This document shows, one piece after another, positions 1 to 34,021 of a stretch of 34,021 nucleotides of DNA. This DNA comes from a virus, in IMG/VR virus record IMGVR_UViG_3300042868_009320, positions 1 to 34,021 of that record, one strand, 5' to 3'. A program made the translations under genes and the position numbers. The notes beneath the pieces are model-generated. The model did no database searches. It saw only the letters and a list, made by a program, of their open reading frames with translations, and had not been told where the DNA came from. Numbering within the stretch: the first letter of the stretch is position 1; the number at the start of each line of letters is the position of its first letter.

Positions 1-289
1 GGAGATGGTACTTTAGCTGATTTTCCTACATCAACAGGTGGAGGTAGTTCGGTTTCTTATTATCTTAATACAAGTGTAAGTCAAGGTACAATAGGAGGGG
101 TTGCTTATAAACAATTAAGTAAAGTGCCTATTAGTGGTGCTGGAACTGATGTTACTATTTCAGCTAATGGTTACATAGCAAGTTATTTAACTGATGCTAA
201 TGACCCTGCTTTATTAGAAGTACCTGCTGGAAACTTTAATTGTGAGTTTTATTTTAGTGTAAACTCTAATGCTCACAATCCTTATGTTT
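1..289. repeat. Terminal direct repeat, left copy
   Basis: These 289 bases are identical to 33733-34021. The reading frame of the tail-fibre gene passes through both copies, so joining the ends gives one intact gene and a circle of 33,732 bp. A physical terminal repeat inside a fibre gene, far from the terminase genes, would be unusual. I therefore infer either circular permutation (headful packaging) or overlap left by assembling a circular molecule. Confidence 0.95.
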
Positions 290-3200
290 ATGCAGAAGTC
301 TATAAGTATGACGGAACGACTTTTACCTTATTAGGTAGCAATGTGTCTATACCACAATATTTAAGTAATGGAACTACATTAAGTCCATATTACTTTGCAA
401 TAGCCGTTTCTACTTCGGTTTTAACTGTAACAGATAGAATAGCAATTAGAATCTATGTAAATGTAGATGGTAAAACTGTTACTTTACATACCGAGAATAA
501 TCATTTGTGTCAAGTAGTTACTACCTTTTCTAAGGGTATAATTTCTTTAAATAACCTTACAAGACAAAATCAATTCTTTGGCACAGGAACAAGTGGAACT
601 GATTTTGCAATATCTTCAAGCGTAGCTACGCATACATTTAATTTGCCTGTGGCTTCGGCTACAAATACTGGTAAATTGAGTTCAACGGATTGGAGTACAT
701 TTAATGGCAAAGTTCCTTACACAGGAGCAACTGCAAATGTAGATTTGGGTGCATTTAGTTTAAGTGGAGATACAATTAGTGGAGTTGGTATTTTTTCAGT
801 TGGTAGTGGTACTCAAAGTGGATATATTGGTATAAAACAAGGAACTACATTTCTTGGTAATATTAGTGGCTATAATAGTATAAATGCAAATGCAACAAAA
901 TTTATATTAATATCAGATATAGGTTCAACAAATTATAAATCAGCAAGTTTTCAATTAAGTTCATTAACTAATAATACTGAAAGAACATTTACACTCCCAG
1001 ACATATCTGGAACTTTAGCACTTTTAGAAGGAAGCCAAACGTTTAGTGGAAGTAAGACATTTAGTAGTTCAATTAAAGCTGATTCAGGTATTTTATTAAA
1101 AAATGGATTTACCACTTACTCTAATGGATATACATCATTAGGTGGAGATATAGGTAATTTAATAATTAGTAGTTCAATTGGTGGAACACCTTATGATAAT
1201 GAATTTTCTTTTACATCATCAACATCTAATACATACACATTTCCTAATGCAAGTGGCACAATAGCACTTACTTCTAATTTATCTAGTTATGTTCCTTATA
1301 CAGGAGCAACTACTAATGTAGATTTGGGTGCAAATTATATAACATCTGCAACTATTGTGTTTTGGAAAGGAACAGGAACAGGATTAGGTAATATTGGTTT
1401 AGGTAGAATTGTACCATTAGGTCAAAATACTACTGGTCAAGGGAATATAGGTATAGGAGAAAGTTCTTTATTTTTTAATACTACTGGAAGCAATAATATT
1501 GCTATTGGAGTTTCATCTACTCAAGCCAATACAACTGGTATAAATAACATTGGTATTGGTCTTGGTTCTAATTCTAATAATGTTACTGGTTCTGGTAACG
1601 TAGCGGTTGGGGTAGGTTCATTAAATTTTAATACAACTAATTATAATACCGCAGTAGGTCATCTTTCATTGTATTTTAATACAACAGGAACTAATAATGT
1701 AGCAGTAGGAAATACTTCATTATATACAAATACAACAGGTGCTCAAAATACTGCATTAGGTGCTGCATCATTATATTATAATACTACTGGTAGTAATAAT
1801 ACCGCAATTGGTAATGTTGCATTACAACAAAATACGACTGGAGTAAATAATACCGCAATAGGTAGTTTTTCATCTTATTTAAATACCACAGGTCAAAACA
1901 ATACATCAGTAGGTGCAAGTTCATTAAGTGCTAACACAATTGGTCAATACAATACAGCAATAGGTAGTGCTTCGTTAAATGCAAATACTACTGCTTTTTA
2001 TAACACTGCTATTGGATATGCTTCATTAAATTTAAATACAACTGGAGAATCTAATGTTGCAGTTGGTGGTAGTGCATTAGGTGTTAACACAACAGGTCAA
2101 TATAATGTTGCGGTTGGTCGTTCTGCATCTAATGGTAATACTACTGGTAATTATAATACTGCTTTAGGTGGTCAAGCATTAGCAAATGTTACAACAGGAA
2201 GTCAAAATATTGCAATAGGTTACAATGCAGGTGGTGGAATTACAACAGGAAGTCAAAACACAATTATTGGTATAGTAACAGGTTTATCTTCAACATTATC
2301 TAATAATATTATACTTGCTGATGGAGCAGGTAACATAAGATACCAATGGAATGGTACTAATAATGTATTCACAGGAGCAGCTACATTCTCAAGTAGTGTA
2401 ACGGCAGGGGGTAAAATATTTACATCAGCAAGTGTTAATGATAATATACTTGAAGTAATAAATAGTGATACTACAAACGGATATGGTCTTTATGTAAGAG
2501 GTGGTGGAACTGCAACAAATAGATATGTAGCAAGATTTAAGAATGGTGCAGATAATGATGTAATGTGGATTGGTAACACTGGTAATGTAGGTATAGGAAT
2601 ATCAACAGGATTTAATGTTATATCAGGTACTGAAACAACTTTACAAATAGCAGGTGGCAATGTAGCATCTTTATACCTTAATAGTACAGGTTCAAATAAA
2701 TGGGCATTATTTGCTAATGCAAGTGGTAGTCTTGGTGTTTATAATTTAACTGCAAGTACTATACCTTTTACCATAGCATCCACAGGAGCAGCTACATTCT
2801 CAAGTGATGTAACAATAGGACCAAGCAATGGTAGTTTTAAAGGTTTTGGTCACTCAGTAAATGTAAGTTCAGTATCACAAGGTGGATTATTTCCTTATAG
2901 CGGAGTTACAGGAAGTGGTGCTGATTATTCACCTACATTATTTGCTGATGGTTCTAATAATTTATATTTCTGTGCTGGGGGGTCTACTGCTAAAAAAATG
3001 ACTATTACAAGTGGGGGTAGTGTAGGTATAGGAACTTCTGCACCTATAACAAAGTTACAAATAAGTAATGTAAGTGGTGCTGATTTACTATCATTTGGTA
3101 TATCGGATTATCAAGCTTGGGTTGGTGGTAAAATAGATTTACAAGGTATATCTTCTTTTGGTGCTGATATGGCATTTTACACTCATCCTGCAAATAGTAG

Positions 3201-3810
3201 CAATAATGCTACTGTTGTAGAAAGAATGCGTATTAAGAGTAATGGTACTGTAGGCATTGGAATTACAACAGGAACTTATAATGGTAGGTTTTGTATAGAA
3301 GGTGATGGCACTACTACAAGTAATGTGCATTTAGAAATGTCAACTGATGCAAATAGAAGTTATTTACAAAGTGCAAATAGAACATTTATAGCACTTGCAC
3401 CATTAACTATTGGTTCTTCAAGTATAATAATTGAAGCATTGGCAGGTTCTGGCAGTAGAACAGTAACGGCATCAGCAGACGGTACATTATCAGCTTCATC
3501 TGATTCAACTTTAAAACAAGAAGATAAAGAATATAAAATTCAAGGTCTTGCTGAAATTTTACAATTAAAACCAAGAGCTTATAAATGGTTAAGTGATATA
3601 GAAATAAGAGGAGAAGAAGCAACAACTGAAATAGGATTTTTTGCAGATGAAGTAAACCCAATTATACCAAGTGCAGCACCAAAAGGTAATGACAATTTAT
3701 ATGGTTTTTATGATAGGGCAGTTATTGCAGCATTGGTAAAAGCTATTCAAGAGCAACAAGCAATGATAACATCATTACAAGAGCATATAAACGAATTAAA
3801 AAATAAATAA
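1..3810 (+). CDS. Long tail fibre with S74 chaperone domain, 3' part (5' part at 33616-34021)
   Basis: This is most of a 1308-residue fibre; base 1 falls on codon 40 of the full protein, whose ATG is at 33616. In order it shows a domain of about 140 residues (about bases 127-546) that recurs in the neighbouring 32404 gene, fibre-type linkers with two YTGATxNVDLG blocks, seventeen tandem 16-17-residue repeats of the NTTGxNNxAIG type, more linkers, and a C-terminal intramolecular chaperone domain from base 3499. That domain starts SDSTLKQED, matching the Ser-Lys pattern of Peptidase_S74 self-cleaving chaperones of trimeric fibres. It ends in a predicted coiled coil. The role is host receptor recognition at the tail tip. 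The family assignment of the C-terminus is firm; trimerisation and self-cleavage are inferred. A GTG at 124 is internal, not the start. Confidence 0.9.
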   Translation, partial: GDGTLADFPTSTGGGSSVSYYLNTSVSQGTIGGVAYKQLSKVPISGAGTDVTISANGYIASYLTDANDPALLEVPAGNFNCEFYFSVNSNAHNPYVYAEVYKYDGTTFTLLGSNVSIPQYLSNGTTLSPYYFAIAVSTSVLTVTDRIAIRIYVNVDGKTVTLHTENNHLCQVVTTFSKGIISLNNLTRQNQFFGTGTSGTDFAISSSVATHTFNLPVASATNTGKLSSTDWSTFNGKVPYTGATANVDLGAFSLSGDTISGVGIFSVGSGTQSGYIGIKQGTTFLGNISGYNSINANATKFILISDIGSTNYKSASFQLSSLTNNTERTFTLPDISGTLALLEGSQTFSGSKTFSSSIKADSGILLKNGFTTYSNGYTSLGGDIGNLIISSSIGGTPYDNEFSFTSSTSNTYTFPNASGTIALTSNLSSYVPYTGATTNVDLGANYITSATIVFWKGTGTGLGNIGLGRIVPLGQNTTGQGNIGIGESSLFFNTTGSNNIAIGVSSTQANTTGINNIGIGLGSNSNNVTGSGNVAVGVGSLNFNTTNYNTAVGHLSLYFNTTGTNNVAVGNTSLYTNTTGAQNTALGAASLYYNTTGSNNTAIGNVALQQNTTGVNNTAIGSFSSYLNTTGQNNTSVGASSLSANTIGQYNTAIGSASLNANTTAFYNTAIGYASLNLNTTGESNVAVGGSALGVNTTGQYNVAVGRSASNGNTTGNYNTALGGQALANVTTGSQNIAIGYNAGGGITTGSQNTIIGIVTGLSSTLSNNIILADGAGNIRYQWNGTNNVFTGAATFSSSVTAGGKIFTSASVNDNILEVINSDTTNGYGLYVRGGGTATNRYVARFKNGADNDVMWIGNTGNVGIGISTGFNVISGTETTLQIAGGNVASLYLNSTGSNKWALFANASGSLGVYNLTASTIPFTIASTGAATFSSDVTIGPSNGSFKGFGHSVNVSSVSQGGLFPYSGVTGSGADYSPTLFADGSNNLYFCAGGSTAKKMTITSGGSVGIGTSAPITKLQISNVSGADLLSFGISDYQAWVGGKIDLQGISSFGADMAFYTHPANSSNNATVVERMRIKSNGTVGIGITTGTYNGRFCIEGDGTTTSNVHLEMSTDANRSYLQSANRTFIALAPLTIGSSSIIIEALAGSGSRTVTASADGTLSASSDSTLKQEDKEYKIQGLAEILQLKPRAYKWLSDIEIRGEEATTEIGFFADEVNPIIPSAAPKGNDNLYGFYDRAVIAALVKAIQEQQAMITSLQEHINELKNK
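1426..2292 (+). repeat. Seventeen tandem ~51-bp coding repeats in the tail fibre
   Basis: The repeat unit encodes NTTG, two or three variable residues, then (I/V/T)A(I/V/L)G and a Ser/Ala/Leu-rich end. I count 17 units of 16-17 residues. The pattern resembles the left-handed beta-roll repeats of YadA/Hep_Hag-type adhesin heads, which suggests a long trimeric beta-roll shaft. The copies have diverged at codon level, so this is not a recent expansion. Confidence 0.85.
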
Positions 3811-4135: not shown

Positions 4136-4150
4136 TAAAAAATCAATACT

Positions 4151-4303
4151 ATGTTAAATCTATCAGACGAGAATCTAAAAGCATTAGAAGTTTATTTAAT
4201 TGAGGTTCCATTTAAGTATGCGAACCCAATTTTGCAAATATTAGCAAAACTTCATCAAGAGCAAAATCCTCAAGCTCCTGAAGCAGAGGTAGTTGAAGGA
4301 TAA
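4151..4303 (+). CDS. 50-residue hypothetical protein at the head of the lysis block
   Basis: The ORF has 50 codons: MLNLSDENLKALEVYLIEVP at the start, then a helical middle and a Pro/Glu-rich end. It has an ATG soon after the promoter-like box at 4128 and a stop codon overlapping the next ATG (TAATG at 4301-4305), so it fits the packing of the operon. There is no membrane segment or known motif. Short genes of this sort are common between fibre and lysis genes, and no function can be assigned. Confidence 0.65.
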   Translation: MLNLSDENLKALEVYLIEVPFKYANPILQILAKLHQEQNPQAPEAEVVEG

Positions 4304-4905
4304 TGAAATTCCTTAAAGACAACATCTTGTTCATAGCCGTAATACTCCTTGTGTTATGGCTATATTTTTTACTAAAACCTACCTACTTACCTAGAATTGG
4401 TAAGCAATTCGATACTTCTCAGTACAAAAAGATAGTAGAAATACACGATACTACGTACAAAACATTGTACGTTAATACGTACAAGAAAGGAAATGATATA
4501 CCATTCTATATCATTGACTCTGTACAGATTCCTGTACACGATACTTTATATGTATTAAACGACTATTATAAGGTCAAAGCCTATTCTGACACTATTAAAA
4601 AAGATTCTAATATCTTTGTAGTGAATGATACTATCAGCCAAAATAGGATTATTTCAAGGGGTTTTACAGCCAATTTAACCGAAAAAACCATAATTACGAG
4701 AGAATACTACGCTAGTAAACCGACTAATACCCTTTATTGGGGCATTAGAGGCTCATACAGCCCACTTAATGGCTTGGAAGTACTAAGTCCTTCCTTGATG
4801 CTAGGTGTCAAAAATAAGGCTCTAATAGGCTTTAGTGTAGATATTAATAAAAATTATAATATTGGCTACTCAGGTAGCTTGTATTTCAAAATCGGTAAAA
4901 AGTAA
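4303..4905 (+). CDS. Membrane-anchored protein with beta-rich C-terminus; spanin-like candidate
   Basis: A protein of 200 residues. Residues 8-24 form one strong membrane segment (ILFIAVILLVLWLYFLL), followed by an extracytoplasmic region with Asp/Thr/Tyr-rich beta-type sequence. The last 60 residues alternate hydrophobic and polar residues (LYWGIRGSYSP, then GYSGSLYFKIGKK), as in outer-membrane beta strands. It sits in the lysis block ahead of the holin-like and endolysin genes. An inner-membrane anchor plus a C-terminus that could meet the outer membrane would suit a spanin-like role. That is inference from layout; I do not recognise the family with certainty. Confidence 0.65.
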   Translation: MKFLKDNILFIAVILLVLWLYFLLKPTYLPRIGKQFDTSQYKKIVEIHDTTYKTLYVNTYKKGNDIPFYIIDSVQIPVHDTLYVLNDYYKVKAYSDTIKKDSNIFVVNDTISQNRIISRGFTANLTEKTIITREYYASKPTNTLYWGIRGSYSPLNGLEVLSPSLMLGVKNKALIGFSVDINKNYNIGYSGSLYFKIGKK

Positions 4906-27035: not shown

Positions 27036-27491
27036 ATGGCAACAACAAGTGTATTTAACGGAACTTCATTAGTAGTTCTAATTGGAACGGAAGTAATAGG
27101 ATTTGCTACTTCTTGTTCATTAAGTTTAGCTATAGATGCTCCAGATGCATCTACAAAACAAAGTTTAGGCTGGGCTGATGAAATTGGTGGACAAAGGTCT
27201 TGGTCTTTGACTACTGATGGTTTAGCTACAGTAGTACCTGGAACAGTTGCAACTTATGTAACTACAGCTGAATTGAATGCTTTAGCAATAGCTAGAACAG
27301 CAGTTACAGTTAAGTTTACAACAGTTGATAACTCTACAGTAGGTGGTGTAACTCCAGTTACAGGTGATGTGATTTATTCAGGTTCAGCATTTATTGAGAG
27401 TGTAGATATGACTGCTGATATGGAGAATCCAGTTACTTACTCAGTATCTTTCAAAGGAACAGGAGTATTAACTATCGCTACCAACGCATAA
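27036..27491 (+). CDS. Major tail tube protein, TP901-1-like
   Basis: A protein of 151 residues rich in Thr, Val, Ala and Gly. NGTSLVVLIGTEVIGFATSC opens the fold, RSWSLTTDGLA is the middle strand, and ENPVTYSVSFKGTG closes it, as in TP901-1/lambda-type tail tubes of long non-contractile tails. Hexamers stack into the tail. A longer protein encoded at 32404 repeats these landmarks around an inserted domain. No tail sheath gene is present, so the phage is a siphovirus. Confidence 0.9.
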   Translation: MATTSVFNGTSLVVLIGTEVIGFATSCSLSLAIDAPDASTKQSLGWADEIGGQRSWSLTTDGLATVVPGTVATYVTTAELNALAIARTAVTVKFTTVDNSTVGGVTPVTGDVIYSGSAFIESVDMTADMENPVTYSVSFKGTGVLTIATNA

Positions 27492-28200: not shown

Positions 28201-30456
28201 ATGGCAGAAGAATTATTACAGATTAGAGTCACGGCAGATTTTAAAGAAGCAGAAGGTGCTTTTTTACGATTAGCTAAAGTCGCTACTTCTTTTGAAGGTA
28301 CTATAAAAACTATAGCTGGAAATTTAAATAAAGATTTTAATAGAATTAATGGGATGGCTGAATTATTTGGCGATACAAGCAATGTCGTTAAAGATAAAAT
28401 GGAAGCCTTAAAAAGAGCAATGAATAGTCTTATGACTAGTGGGTTTCAAGCATTGAATCCAGAGGTTCAGAAATTAAAAAAACAATATGATGCACTTGCT
28501 GCTTCATTAACACCAATACCTAACAAATTAGACCAAGCTGGTGATTCATTAAAAAAATCTAATCAAAAATGGACAAATTTTGCATTAGTAATTCAAGATT
28601 TACCTTATGGATTTAGAGGTATACAAAATAACTTACCTGCTCTTATGGGTGGTATTGCAGGAATGGCTGGGCCATTCTATTTTGTAGGTTCAGCAATTAT
28701 TGCATTATTTACAGCTTGGGATCAAGGTTCTTTTAAAGCAAAAAATGCTATAGATAGAGTATCAGAAGCACATAAAAAAAGTACAGAAGGATTAACTAAA
28801 GGAGCAGATGCTCAATCAGCTGCATTAGTTGAGATGAGTAAAATGTCCGTTATTTTTAGTGGGGTTAAAGATGGTCTCATTACTGCAGAAGAAGCTTTAG
28901 AAGAATATAATACTACATATGGTCAGACTTGGGGTATAGCTACGAACGTTAATGAAGCAGAAGATAGTTTTATAAAAAAATCTAATGCTTATGTACAGGC
29001 TATGGCTCTAAGAGCTATGGCAAATGAAAAATATGCTCAAGCACAAGAAGCTTTTAAGACAGGTGCATTAGCTAGAGGTGAAGACCAAACGTCATTTTTA
29101 CAAAAGTTTGCAGCTGGATTAAGTGCATTAGACCAAGTTGGTATAATGACTTTTGATGCAGCTTCATTAAATAAATGGGCAAAATCATTTAGTAAAACAT
29201 ATGCTGATACGCAAACTGTACTAGTAAAAGATATACAAAATGAATCTGCTAGTTCATTTGATAAGCTTATGGCCCAAGGTAGAGAATTTGATAAACAGGC
29301 TAATAAAAAACTAAAAGATGCTGGGATTAAACCAACAACTGGGAAGAAAGGCAAAAGTTCAGATCAAATAATAAAAGAGCAAACAGCTAAAGAAAAAGCT
29401 GCTAATGATGCTCAGACAAAAGCATATATAGACACATTAGACGAAAGAGGCAAAAAAGAATATCAAGTTGGCTTAGATTTAGCTAATGAATTAACTGTAA
29501 TGAAATCAGCTGGATTTAGTGATTCAACTACATACTATGCTGCATTCAGGGCAAATATGGATAAAATTGCCAAGGAGTATGATGATAAAGAATATAAAAG
29601 AAACCAAGATAGTATAAATGCTAACATTGCTGCTGAAACTAAGTTTTACGATGATTCAAATAGGATTTATGATGAAAATCAAAAGAAAAAAGAAGCTGAT
29701 AGAAAGAAAGAATTGGATAGAGTGTTTCAAAACGAAATGGATGCTATCCAAAATAAATTATCTGCACAATTAAAAGGCAATAGAAAAGAACCATTACAAC
29801 AAGCACAAAATTATAATGAAGCGATTGGTAGTCTTATAATAATGGGTATGAAAGCTGGTACAACAGCTGAACAAATAGAAAAATTACAAGATAAAATAAA
29901 TAATCTAAATTCTTCAGCAGCAGGGACAGCTGCGGCATTTACTCCAATAGCAGATATTTTAAATAATTTAGCCACTAACACTTTAGTTGAATTTGGTACA
30001 CAAATAGGAAATTTATTAAGTGGTGGAAAATTTGCTTTAGATGGATTCTTAGGAATGATTGCGAGTGCATTAATTCAAATAGGAACACATTTAGTAATGG
30101 TATCAAAATTATTTATAGCTGTTGATGCATTATTTGCAAGTGGAGGTAAATTAGCTTTTTTATCTATTCCAATCGGTATAGCAGCAATCGCTGCTGGAGT
30201 TGCTTTAAATAGTGTAATTTCTAAAAAACAAAAAGTTAAAGCGTTCGCTGATGGTGGTATTGTTAGTGGCCCTACAATGGGATTAATAGGAGAATATCCT
30301 GGTGCTAAATCAAACCCTGAGGTTGTTGCTCCATTAGATAAATTAAAAGACATGTTAGGTAGTAATGGTGGTGGACAATTTATACTTAAAGGCCAAGATT
30401 TAGTATTGGCTATGAATAGAAGCGAGTCATCATTAAAACTTAGAAGAGGCATATAA
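28201..30456 (+). CDS. Tail tape measure protein
   Basis: A protein of 751 residues, mostly helical, with ATG at 28201. Coiled-coil stretches at both ends of the middle (YKRNQDSINANIAAETKFYD, then KKKEADRKKELDRVFQNEMD) and hydrophobic segments (GIAGMAGPFYFVGSAIIALF near 160, IPIGIAAIAAGVALNS near 685) are typical of tape measures, which set tail length and enter the host envelope. By the usual rule of about 0.15 nm per residue, the tail should be about 110 nm. It is the second longest gene after the fibre. Confidence 0.93.
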   Translation: MAEELLQIRVTADFKEAEGAFLRLAKVATSFEGTIKTIAGNLNKDFNRINGMAELFGDTSNVVKDKMEALKRAMNSLMTSGFQALNPEVQKLKKQYDALAASLTPIPNKLDQAGDSLKKSNQKWTNFALVIQDLPYGFRGIQNNLPALMGGIAGMAGPFYFVGSAIIALFTAWDQGSFKAKNAIDRVSEAHKKSTEGLTKGADAQSAALVEMSKMSVIFSGVKDGLITAEEALEEYNTTYGQTWGIATNVNEAEDSFIKKSNAYVQAMALRAMANEKYAQAQEAFKTGALARGEDQTSFLQKFAAGLSALDQVGIMTFDAASLNKWAKSFSKTYADTQTVLVKDIQNESASSFDKLMAQGREFDKQANKKLKDAGIKPTTGKKGKSSDQIIKEQTAKEKAANDAQTKAYIDTLDERGKKEYQVGLDLANELTVMKSAGFSDSTTYYAAFRANMDKIAKEYDDKEYKRNQDSINANIAAETKFYDDSNRIYDENQKKKEADRKKELDRVFQNEMDAIQNKLSAQLKGNRKEPLQQAQNYNEAIGSLIIMGMKAGTTAEQIEKLQDKINNLNSSAAGTAAAFTPIADILNNLATNTLVEFGTQIGNLLSGGKFALDGFLGMIASALIQIGTHLVMVSKLFIAVDALFASGGKLAFLSIPIGIAAIAAGVALNSVISKKQKVKAFADGGIVSGPTMGLIGEYPGAKSNPEVVAPLDKLKDMLGSNGGGQFILKGQDLVLAMNRSESSLKLRRGI

Positions 30457-32402
30457 TGGCATACGGACAAAAATACTCAGTAACATTTGCTACAAGAGCA
30501 GATAAGAATGTCGAACTAAAGATATGGCAAGATCCCTATACAGGGGCTATTATAGACCTTCAAGGAGTAGGAGTAAACCTTGAGTATATTCCTAACTCAG
30601 ACGATCCGTATGAGCCTATATTTGCTTCACAATTAGGTATATCTATAGACTTTACAGATGACCTATCTAATATTATTAATTTTACTGATATAGACGATAG
30701 GTTTAACTATGTAGAAATGTACGTTGATGGTGTTATTCAATGGGTAGGATTTATCATTAATGATAATGTTCAAATCTCTTATTCTACAGGTAGAAAGATA
30801 GCTACCTTTAATGCTGCTGATGGATTAGGTATGTTAAAAGACATACCATTTGTACCAATAACTAGTACAGGGGTAAATGATGTATCCTCATTACTTAATA
30901 TACTAAGAACTTGCTTTAACGCTATAGGATTTAAAAACAATAGAAACACAGTTACTATGTGTTCTTATTTTGCTAATGGTATGTCTGATAGAGCGGTACA
31001 GTCATACAACGATACATTTACGCAAACCTTTATGTGTTATAGGAATTTCTTAAAAGACGAATATACTTATACTAATTGCTTAGACATTATATCAAATATT
31101 GCTAAGTCTTTTGGATGTAGAATATTTCAGGCTAATGCTAAATGGTGGATTGTGGCAGTAAATGAGTTTGCTGAAACAAATGCTTATTATACAGAATACA
31201 ATACAAGTGGAGCAGTAGTAAATAATGGAGATGGTAATTTAATAAATACTTCATCTACAATACAACCTTATTCAACAAATACATCAGGTTTATACTTTAT
31301 TGATAATAGTCAATTAAAGATTCTTAAAAAAGGATTTTATAAGATTATAGCAGAAGGCGATGTAGAAATTGCTGAGAATTATATTCCTAATGGTAACTTA
31401 TTAGAGAATGACACTATAGAAGCTGAATATTGGACTAGAGGCTCAACAGGAAGTGCAACTTGCTTATTATTGCAAAACGCAGTACCACCCTTAGATTATT
31501 ATTACTTTGAATTACAAGCACCAACAGGAACAGCAGAAGTTTTCTTAAACACTTCTTCTAATGCTTATGTAACACAATCAGATGCCCTTCAATTAAATAT
31601 AACAATAGGGGCTGGATCAACAGCATCTATTATTGGTTTTATAGACATATCTATTAATACTGGTTCTACTATTTATTATTTAAACAATAATAAACAATGG
31701 CAAACTACATCAACATCTTTTTCGGTATTTAACCCAACCACAACTGGCCCTGCACAAGATTTTGTATTAGATTTAAAAACAGCAATATTTCCTGCAAGTG
31801 GTCAATTAAGTTTTAAATATAGAATATCAGGAGGTATTCCTTTTGTTACACTTACTAACTTTGTATTAAAGATTAAATCATTTATATCTAATTATAACCT
31901 AAGTGGTACATTGGTAGAAAATGAGCAATATACTAATACAATATCCTTCCCTTATGGATCTACTGGTTCACAGTCTTTATACCCATCTTGTAAAGGAGCA
32001 TTGTTAAGAGCTAATAATACTGTGCCTGCAGGATATTCTGTGGCAGCAGATTGGTATAGATATGGCGTAGATGTTGGTGCTGGAGAGTTTTTTACATTGT
32101 CAGAATTATTAGTACAACAATACATAAACACTTACGGACAAAACATTATTAATTTAGATGCATCAGTAAGTAGTTTTTATACTGAAAATGCTACCTATCC
32201 AATACTTAATGCAGCTAAGCTTATTTTTGCAACAGATACAGATCCTGCATCAATAAATGTTAGTGCAAAATCATATATGTTAGGTAATGCTACAATAGAC
32301 TTGCCTAGTGACCAAACTAACTTAACATTATTGCAGATAAGTAATACTGAAATAGTTTGCACAAAAGTAAATACATATTCACCTCAAACATCAACTTTCT
32401 AA
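30456..32402 (+). CDS. Distal tail / baseplate hub protein
   Basis: A protein of 648 residues, ATG overlapping the tape measure stop. The N-terminal 230 residues (LKIWQDPYTGAIIDLQGVGV, then VEMYVDGVIQWVGFIINDN) look like the Dit/Tal-type hub parts of siphovirus tips, including a C-terminal FGCRIFQANAKWWIVAVNEF beta pattern. The remainder is Thr/Ser/Asn-rich beta sequence as in carbohydrate-binding tail domains. The call is from order and pattern; the family is not recognised exactly. Confidence 0.72.
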   Translation: MAYGQKYSVTFATRADKNVELKIWQDPYTGAIIDLQGVGVNLEYIPNSDDPYEPIFASQLGISIDFTDDLSNIINFTDIDDRFNYVEMYVDGVIQWVGFIINDNVQISYSTGRKIATFNAADGLGMLKDIPFVPITSTGVNDVSSLLNILRTCFNAIGFKNNRNTVTMCSYFANGMSDRAVQSYNDTFTQTFMCYRNFLKDEYTYTNCLDIISNIAKSFGCRIFQANAKWWIVAVNEFAETNAYYTEYNTSGAVVNNGDGNLINTSSTIQPYSTNTSGLYFIDNSQLKILKKGFYKIIAEGDVEIAENYIPNGNLLENDTIEAEYWTRGSTGSATCLLLQNAVPPLDYYYFELQAPTGTAEVFLNTSSNAYVTQSDALQLNITIGAGSTASIIGFIDISINTGSTIYYLNNNKQWQTTSTSFSVFNPTTTGPAQDFVLDLKTAIFPASGQLSFKYRISGGIPFVTLTNFVLKIKSFISNYNLSGTLVENEQYTNTISFPYGSTGSQSLYPSCKGALLRANNTVPAGYSVAADWYRYGVDVGAGEFFTLSELLVQQYINTYGQNIINLDASVSSFYTENATYPILNAAKLIFATDTDPASINVSAKSYMLGNATIDLPSDQTNLTLLQISNTEIVCTKVNTYSPQTSTF

Positions 32403-32403
32403 T

Positions 32404-33579
32404 ATGGCATCAGCAATTAACGGAACTAATATAGTTTTATATGAATATGATAGCAACGCTATCTACTACTTTAATGGAGGTACTGCACAAGGTACTTTTG
32501 ATAGTATTGTATGTAAAGAATTAAGCAGAAGTCAAGTAGGTGGAACATCGGTTACATTTACTAAAACAGGGGCAGGAACAATAGCTTCGTTTATTACGGA
32601 TGCTTTAGATCCTGGTGTAACTACGATACCAGCAGGAACTTGGACTTTTAGTGCTTATTATTCTATTCTAACTGCCTTTGCAGGTGCTCAGGTACAGTAT
32701 GAACTATATAAATACAATGGTAGTGTAGCTACCTTGTTGTTTACATCGGCAGCAACGACCTTAACAGCCACATCTACGACCTTGTATACTACGGCAATGA
32801 CAGTTACTCAAACAACTATAAGTGCCACAGATAGGCTTCTAATTAAGGTTAATTACGCAGGTACAACAACCAATCAAATTACTTTATTTACTCAAGCTAG
32901 TAATCTAGCTCAAGTAACTACAACTATACCACTAGGAACCCCAATGGGGGCTTCTACAAGCTGTACATTTGAATCATCTACTGAACAAGTAGAAGTAACC
33001 TCACAGACATCAGCTTACTTCAGAGAGTTTAAAAATGACGTTACATCTTGGAGTGTTAATTGTGATGGGTTTGTAGCCTTAAGTGGTTACTCTTATCTTG
33101 CTTTAATGCAGAAACAATTAGATAGAGCTTCAATAGAGGTAAAGTTTTCTATAGACAATGACAACGCAGATGGTAGTGATACCTATGGTTATTCGGTAAT
33201 TAGTGGAACGACTAATATTACTTCTCTTAGTTTAAGTGCACCTGTAGAGGGTGCATCTACCTATTCTTTATCTTTGCAAGGAACTGGAGCATATTCAATA
33301 TCAGGAACACAGGTTATAGATGGAGGATTGGTAATAGCAACAGGAGGTTTAACTATTATGAAACAATATGATGCAACAGGTGGTGAGACTTCTATAACTT
33401 GGACAGATACAATAGGAAAGACTTGTTTATATGTATCAAGAGGTGGTTTAGATGTAAGAGAAATTTCTACAAGTGGAACGCCAACAGGAGATCAGATAGT
33501 ATTTATAAGTGCGACAGGGGTTGTAACATTTGGTAGAGCTTTAGAAGCAGATGAATTCATAAGAGCCCTTTTTCAATAG
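32404..33579 (+). CDS. Tail-tube-like distal tail protein with an inserted fibre-type domain
   Basis: A protein of 391 residues. Residues 1-23 (INGTNIVLYEYDSNAIYYF) and 181-298 (GASTSCTFESS, TSWSVNCDGF, TYSLSLQGTG) follow the landmarks of the major tail tube protein at 27036. Between them, residues 46-174 repeat a domain found at the N-terminus of the tail fibre: IASFITDALDP, IPAG, YELYKYNG, ATDRLLIK, ITLFTQ. So a receptor- or sugar-binding-like domain seems to sit in a tail-tube fold. The C-terminus is beta-rich. Likely a tail-tip protein that decorates the tail end or joins the fibre. Confidence 0.75.
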   Translation: MASAINGTNIVLYEYDSNAIYYFNGGTAQGTFDSIVCKELSRSQVGGTSVTFTKTGAGTIASFITDALDPGVTTIPAGTWTFSAYYSILTAFAGAQVQYELYKYNGSVATLLFTSAATTLTATSTTLYTTAMTVTQTTISATDRLLIKVNYAGTTTNQITLFTQASNLAQVTTTIPLGTPMGASTSCTFESSTEQVEVTSQTSAYFREFKNDVTSWSVNCDGFVALSGYSYLALMQKQLDRASIEVKFSIDNDNADGSDTYGYSVISGTTNITSLSLSAPVEGASTYSLSLQGTGAYSISGTQVIDGGLVIATGGLTIMKQYDATGGETSITWTDTIGKTCLYVSRGGLDVREISTSGTPTGDQIVFISATGVVTFGRALEADEFIRALFQ

Positions 33580-33615: not shown

Positions 33616-34021
33616 ATGAGTAATCAATTACAAGTATCAGGGGAAGCAAAGATTAGGACAATACAAGGCCCAGTAGTAGCTAATAGTGGTGTAATAACTG
33701 CCTTAGATGGTGATGCTTCTCAATATGTTAGAGGAGATGGTACTTTAGCTGATTTTCCTACATCAACAGGTGGAGGTAGTTCGGTTTCTTATTATCTTAA
33801 TACAAGTGTAAGTCAAGGTACAATAGGAGGGGTTGCTTATAAACAATTAAGTAAAGTGCCTATTAGTGGTGCTGGAACTGATGTTACTATTTCAGCTAAT
33901 GGTTACATAGCAAGTTATTTAACTGATGCTAATGACCCTGCTTTATTAGAAGTACCTGCTGGAAACTTTAATTGTGAGTTTTATTTTAGTGTAAACTCTA
34001 ATGCTCACAATCCTTATGTTT
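33616..34021 (+). CDS. Long tail fibre, 5' part (continues at 1-3810)
   Basis: The gene starts at ATG 33616 (MSNQLQVSGEAKIRTIQGPV) and runs off the window end; the same frame continues at base 40 codons in, that is base 1. The first 80 residues, with SQYVRGDGTLADFP, are of the sort that attaches fibres to the tail in phages of the Bacteroidota. A Gly/Ser hinge (STGGGSSVS) precedes the domain shared with the 32404 protein. Full length across the junction is 1308 residues. Confidence 0.9.
   Translation, partial: MSNQLQVSGEAKIRTIQGPVVANSGVITALDGDASQYVRGDGTLADFPTSTGGGSSVSYYLNTSVSQGTIGGVAYKQLSKVPISGAGTDVTISANGYIASYLTDANDPALLEVPAGNFNCEFYFSVNSNAHNPYV
33733..34021. repeat. Terminal direct repeat, right copy
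   Basis: Identical to bases 1-289 over its full length. It shows that the sequence closes on itself with a unit length of 33,732 bp. Confidence 0.95.

Follow-up and report, generated by a model that had tools for sequence, protein, structure and literature searches.

A tail-tube paralogue with an inserted jelly roll and an XD-type C-terminal domain: a probable modular tail-tip adaptor in uncultured phages

The window analysed here is the complete IMG/VR record IMGVR_UViG_3300042868_009320, with a length of 34,021 nt. It contains a perfect 289-bp terminal repeat (1–289 = 33733–34021), and therefore the record is probably complete or nearly so: it is terminally redundant, with a unit of ~33.7 kb. 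The tail genes are found on the + strand in this order: the major tail tube protein (MTP, 151 aa, 27036–27491), two small ORFs, the tape measure (28201), a 648-aa protein in the position usual for Tal (30456–32402), the 391-aa protein we will call TT (32404–33579) and a tail fibre. The fibre gene is split only because of where the record is cut. It is a single 1308-aa ORF, which runs from 33616 through 34021 to 3810, across the terminal repeat. Its start (33616–34021, +, N-terminus MSNQLQVSGEAKIRTIQG) continues at window position 1, and the remainder (1–3810, +) has YadA-like 17-residue repeats and a Peptidase_S74 end. These repeats are tandem 51-bp NTTG...NxAxG units, found at 1426–2254 upstream of the Peptidase_S74 chaperone end, and they are similar to the repeats in the head of trimeric adhesins of the YadA type.

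The 648-aa protein located between the tape measure and TT matches the virion structural protein family phrog_23570 (1e-11). It has homologues in Cellulophaga and Flavobacterium phages, and the phi18:1 homologue has been detected by mass spectrometry. A PDB sequence search gave no match for this protein, so "Tal" is used here as a positional label only. TT itself is conserved in 80+ viral contigs. Where the flanks are kept, its neighbours are the Tal-position gene on one side and a fibre gene on the other. No isolated phage with TT was found in this analysis, and the search of bacterial genomes gave no relatives of either TT or MTP.

TT is made of a tail-tube core, a domain inserted in this core and a C-terminal domain. 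The core comprises residues 1–17 (32404–32454, +, INGTNIVLYEYD), which form the first strand of the tube fold according to the alignment with the MTP and with an insert-free orthologue (L173), and residues 179–300 (32938–33303, +), which form the rest. Residues 181–298 match Pfam PF06199 Phage_tail_2 (32.3 bits, curated cut-off 23.8) and the major tail protein family phrog_1407 (2e-15). The MTP product matches the same two families, and a PF06199 search of the whole record finds exactly two places: TT and MTP. Profile-profile comparison of TT with the MTP family gives a probability of 97.8% (E 1e-12) over TT residues 179–299. The TT profile also matches the monocin tail tube in the PDB (8qhs, E 7e-6). 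In an orthologue reduced to a bare core (L197), the PF06199 match is continuous from residue 6 to 142, with 47.4 bits.

AF2 models the core of the TT monomer with low confidence (pLDDT about 34–55), so the assignment of a tube fold to this region is based on sequence profiles and on secondary structure: the strand-strand-helix-strand order fits the tail-tube fold. Monocin tail tube chains appear among the Foldseek results of the whole TT model (prob 1.00, E 2e-3), in a list whose top ranks are dominated by the insert and which says little about the core. A previous reading of this DNA, made from the sequence only, had proposed that the ends of TT follow those of the MTP. The families in common and the profile-profile match agree with this proposal, while the core model is too poor to serve as a positive test of the fold. 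Neither of the two results which would have spoken against that reading was obtained: a predicted structure lacking the tube fold, or two domain copies lacking profile similarity. The sequence-only reading also took a TYS..GTG motif as the end of the protein. This is not the case: about 95 more residues follow, and they include a third part which that reading did not see and which is a better clue to function.

The family relationship between the TT core and the MTP might suggest that TT is a minor tail-tube subunit, located within the tube, whose jelly roll decorates the tail shaft. The C-terminal domains of gpV, the SPP1 frameshift product and the lactococcal TpeX extensions decorate the tail shaft in this way. 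Tail tube proteins with outward domains and with inserted domains are known (PMC8718954; PMC6669499). We consider this explanation rather improbable. The TT gene comes after the Tal-position gene, beside the fibre, and in the core tree the TT cores form one clade of their own, far from the MTP clade. Other results against this explanation are given below, together with the C-terminal domain and the covariation of the different parts.

Several orthologues at the same locus lack the insert: L173 (234 aa), L157 and others (230 aa), and the bare core L197 (146 aa). Alignment with these orthologues places the insert between INGTNIVLYEYD and GTPMGASTSC, which are strands one and two of the tube fold, and so in the turn joining them, a type of location which the sequence-only reading had raised. 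The insert covers residues 18–178 (32455–32937, +), about 160 residues instead of the 129 estimated previously. The insert-free L173 and the insert-bearing L079 have 79% identity over 212 residues of core plus C-terminal domain, and the core tree requires at least 3–4 gains or losses of the insert. The inserted domain would point outward, since in lambda the beta1-beta2 loop contacts the Ig domain on the outside of the adjacent subunit (PMC8718954), and six domains of 160 residues would be too large for the tube lumen. In one locus (L182) the insert-free TT gene is found twice in opposite orientation, at 2495–3187 (-) and 4143–4835 (+), possibly an assembly inversion.

Dit is another tail protein to be considered, its N-terminal domains have the tube fold. 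TT could be a Dit-like distal ring (an "evolved Dit") with an inserted carbohydrate-binding module (CBM), placed between the tube and Tal and not beyond Tal. Evolved Dits do bear inserted CBMs (PMC7291167), and no other Dit-like gene was recognised between the tape measure and the fibre. On the other hand, TT matches only MTP families and not Dit families, its insert is found in the tube domain while those of evolved Dits are found in the galectin domain (PMC7291167), and a gene located after the Tal-position gene would be in an unusual order for Dit. We therefore regard this explanation as unlikely.

The insert is homologous to residues 56–218 of the adjacent fibre (49–537, +), the only place in the window where the shared domain of the fibre is whole. 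The sequence-only reading had noticed that the middle of TT matches the fibre. Between TT residues 21–178 and fibre residues 59–218 the identity is about 33%, with E about 1e-18 in blastp and E 7e-23 in the genome search. This likeness is not due to chance, because a profile built from TT inserts alone reaches fibres at up to 3e-44. In the AF2 models, pLDDT is mostly 78–93 for the insert of TT and averages 82.5 for the fibre copy. The two models were made separately from partly overlapping input alignments. Their strands agree, and in both the best fold match is to the jelly roll at the C-terminus of CocE/X-Pro dipeptidyl peptidases (PepX_C), with Z 16.1 for TT and 15.8 for the fibre. Other jelly rolls, CBM6/CBM35 (8.2–8.7) among them, score far lower, with Z 8–10.

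The TT and fibre copies have no match in Pfam, so that no CBM family can be assigned. The insert has no sequence match to PepX_C in Pfam or the PDB, no hydrolase domain is found beside it, and tblastn of the fibre domain against deposited phages gave no match. Most likely the insert would serve for weak binding of glycans or for contact with surfaces, as a module which fibre stems also use; the suggestion of glycan binding comes from the fold similarity to CBM6/CBM35.

In a tree of 124 copies of the domain (a quick tree with midpoint root), a branch with 100% support divides the 42 TT copies from the 82 fibre copies. The fibre form is widespread, with 572 stretches in the viral collection. Many phages in which no TT was detected have it in their fibres, behind other N-termini, and its depth in the fibre varies: about 56, 104, 114, 230 and 376. 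The sequence-only reading had proposed that one domain was copied between neighbouring genes. A recent copying event within this lineage might be expected from the clear homology of adjacent genes, but the two copies are only about 33% identical within this genome, and the branch separating them and the abundance of the domain in fibres without TT make such an event hardly credible. In five loci (L151, L154, L165, L181 and L186) a closely similar jelly roll is found in fibres with a different N-terminus (KKINQLAT...), and these loci have a different structural module and no TT. These loci point to a wide exchange of fibre modules.

The presence of the same domain in adjacent genes might also suggest that the jelly roll of TT binds that of the fibre, and in this way holds it. 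This is very improbable: 37 of the 55 distinct insert-bearing TT loci detected with the TT query are followed by fibres without the domain, and insert-free TT does occur before fibres which have it. The varying depth of the domain in the fibres and its covariation with the fibre N-terminus, which is no better for the insert than for the core, also argue against such a pair. The missing co-occurrence makes pairing between inserts an unlikely means of fibre attachment. We have also rejected the domain as the anchor of the fibre, because its depth varies, the N-termini differ and it is found in phages where no TT was detected.

The third part of TT, residues 301–391 (33304–33576, +), consists of a linker and a C-terminal domain (CTD). 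AF2 gives a pLDDT mostly between 76 and 92 over residues 321–391, and in the model this region has the XD jelly-roll fold, similar to T4 gp10 D2/D3. VIA-align of TT residues 317–391 gives Z 9.1 with residues 123–191 of 9d84_B (chain B of the B2 gp48/gp49 complex) and Z 8.5 with residues 265–332 of 7rej_A (CBA120 TSP4). In both cases the rmsd is 1.6–1.7 A over 65–66 residues, with 23% identity. An insert-free TT also shows a weak tblastn match (E 0.3) to the XD region of phi G17 gp78, a homologue of B2 gp49 and of the XD region of TSP4. A CTD profile scores 19.6 bits on residues 123–196 of this protein, again the XD region, in a search of this one protein, to which the E-values refer. The identity of the CTD is thus based on the fold search and on the weak phi G17 tblastn match. 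No family was found for the CTD in Pfam or PHROG, and its profile has no meaningful match among PDB sequences. Matches of CTD queries from other members to other proteins, with E 0.05–1, have been disregarded. In CBA120 TSP4, the XD2 and XD3 domains bind TSP2 and TSP1, according to analytical ultracentrifugation (PMC8825819). By analogy, the CTD of TT may dock a fibre trimer, in agreement with its covariation with the fibre and its loss together with one fibre type.

All four combinations of insert and CTD are found on the same tube core among the relatives of TT. The insert without CTD is found in L194–L196 (300 aa), and neither of them in the bare core L197 (146 aa). Both modules have therefore been gained and lost independently. 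These four CTD-less loci, some of which are close relatives, are in all cases (4/4) directly followed by a 121–122-aa protein of the phrog_1084 type and a fibre starting with MINLTVVEDN, instead of the MSxQxQ fibre. TT with a CTD is directly followed by a fibre which starts with MSxQxQIxGxxKxR or MAQLVLxNILAGSGNV. In three loci (L198–L200) which contain both cassettes the CTD is retained, because an ordinary fibre intervenes before the cassette with the 121–122-aa protein; the link between CTD loss and fibre type is therefore based on the four loci above. In these loci the order is first fibre, a 160–185-aa protein, the 121–122-aa protein and then, where the contig reaches it, a second fibre. 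A CTD of the fibre-docking type, missing along with that fibre type, would not be expected in a minor subunit within the tube.

Covariation of pairwise distances over 93 loci allows a comparison of the different parts, with row permutations which ignore shared ancestry. The Tal-position protein follows the TT core (rho 0.48–0.54), but the insert only gives rho 0.07–0.15, even though in gene order it lies between the Tal-position protein and the core. The difference between core and insert is 0.39–0.41 (bootstrap 0.33–0.47), and the effect holds on 32 thinned combinations, with 0.41 for the core and 0.00 for the insert. The covariation of the core with the Tal-position protein also argues against a location of TT within the tube. 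For the fibre N-terminus, rho is 0.69 with the CTD, 0.47 with the core and 0.43 with the insert (93 loci). The CTD value could be inflated by the linkage of neighbouring genes, and after thinning its excess over the core is no longer firm, with a 95% interval of -0.02 to 0.42.

Taking these results together, we favour TT as a tail-tube paralogue which works as a modular adaptor at the tail tip, with an XD domain for docking the fibre and an optional jelly roll facing outward. We assign this reading a probability of about two thirds. The tube-fold core would form a distal ring adjoining the Tal-position protein, encoded just upstream. The next gene downstream encodes the trimeric fibre, whose N-terminus would be docked by the XD-type CTD. 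The PepX_C-like jelly roll, which interrupts the core between strands one and two, would be an accessory on the outside of this ring, which would carry the host-recognising fibre at the tail tip. The sequence-only reading had suggested a tube paralogue recast as a tip or decoration protein: the recasting is very likely, and of the two roles we infer that of tip adaptor.

Precedents exist for each part of TT separately. The core belongs to the same sequence family as the PF06199/phrog_1407 tail tube proteins, such as monocin MttP (8qhs) and gp36 and gp44 of Flavobacterium phage 11b, both phrog_1407. Phage 11b is a precedent in gene order: a second member of the tube family, gp44, is found right after the Tal-position gene, as in TT. 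Nevertheless, gp44 (170 aa) has no insert and no room for a full XD-type CTD. We have also considered gp60 of phi18:1, which has the same position as TT, it does not belong to the tube family.

Regarding the insert, both evolved Dits and CBM-decorated lactococcal MTPs (PMC6669499, PMC7291167) combine, like TT, a tail structural protein with a beta-sandwich module which may bind host sugars. The lactococcal CBM is BppA-like, and its place is the galectin domain of the Dit or the C-terminal end of the MTP (PMC6669499, PMC7291167). In TT the module is a jelly roll of the PepX_C type, placed in the turn which follows the first strand, with fibre docking proposed in the same chain. A beta-sandwich domain inserted in a tail-tube fold is also known: "domain2" of the YSD1/chi MTP (PMC8718954). 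It is placed between alpha1 and beta4 of a major tube protein, instead of between the first two strands of a putative tip paralogue, and no link with a fibre domain is described for it in that work, unlike the TT insert. The insert shares its jelly-roll fold, but no detectable sequence similarity, with the PepX_C-type C-terminal domain of CocE/NonD hydrolases (Z about 16) and with CBM6/CBM35 (Z about 8.5).

The CTD resembles XD2/XD3 of CBA120 TSP4, T4 gp10 and B2 gp49/G7C gp66 in its predicted fold and, weakly, in sequence. Those domains are found in fibre, spike or wedge proteins, while in TT a tail-tube core bears one as a C-terminal fusion. We have found no report of such a fusion in the open-access literature. 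TT would thus unite two building blocks which are usually apart: the tail-tube fold and a docking domain of the gp10 type.

The natural series formed by the bare core, the core plus insert, the core plus dock and the core with both allows the role of each module to be probed. It also suggests a natural form of fibre exchange, in which dock and fibre move together and the core keeps its match to the upstream protein. More tentatively, and with a likelihood slightly under even, TT might be a plug-in hub across a large group of uncultured relatives of Flavobacterium and Cellulophaga phages. On a single scaffold, a module for host contact after the first strand and an XD module for fibre docking at the C-terminus would come and go independently, and the fibre type would be exchanged when the 90-residue dock and the fibre gene are swapped as a unit.

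A final observation refers to variation in the core. Two haplotypes are found with the same type of insert, CTFESSTEQ... and CTFSTSVDQ... (L045, L051, L068 and others, compared with the window). The CTFSTSVDQ... haplotype is only found with two groups of the upstream protein (20/20), a sharp signal of recombination inside one gene.
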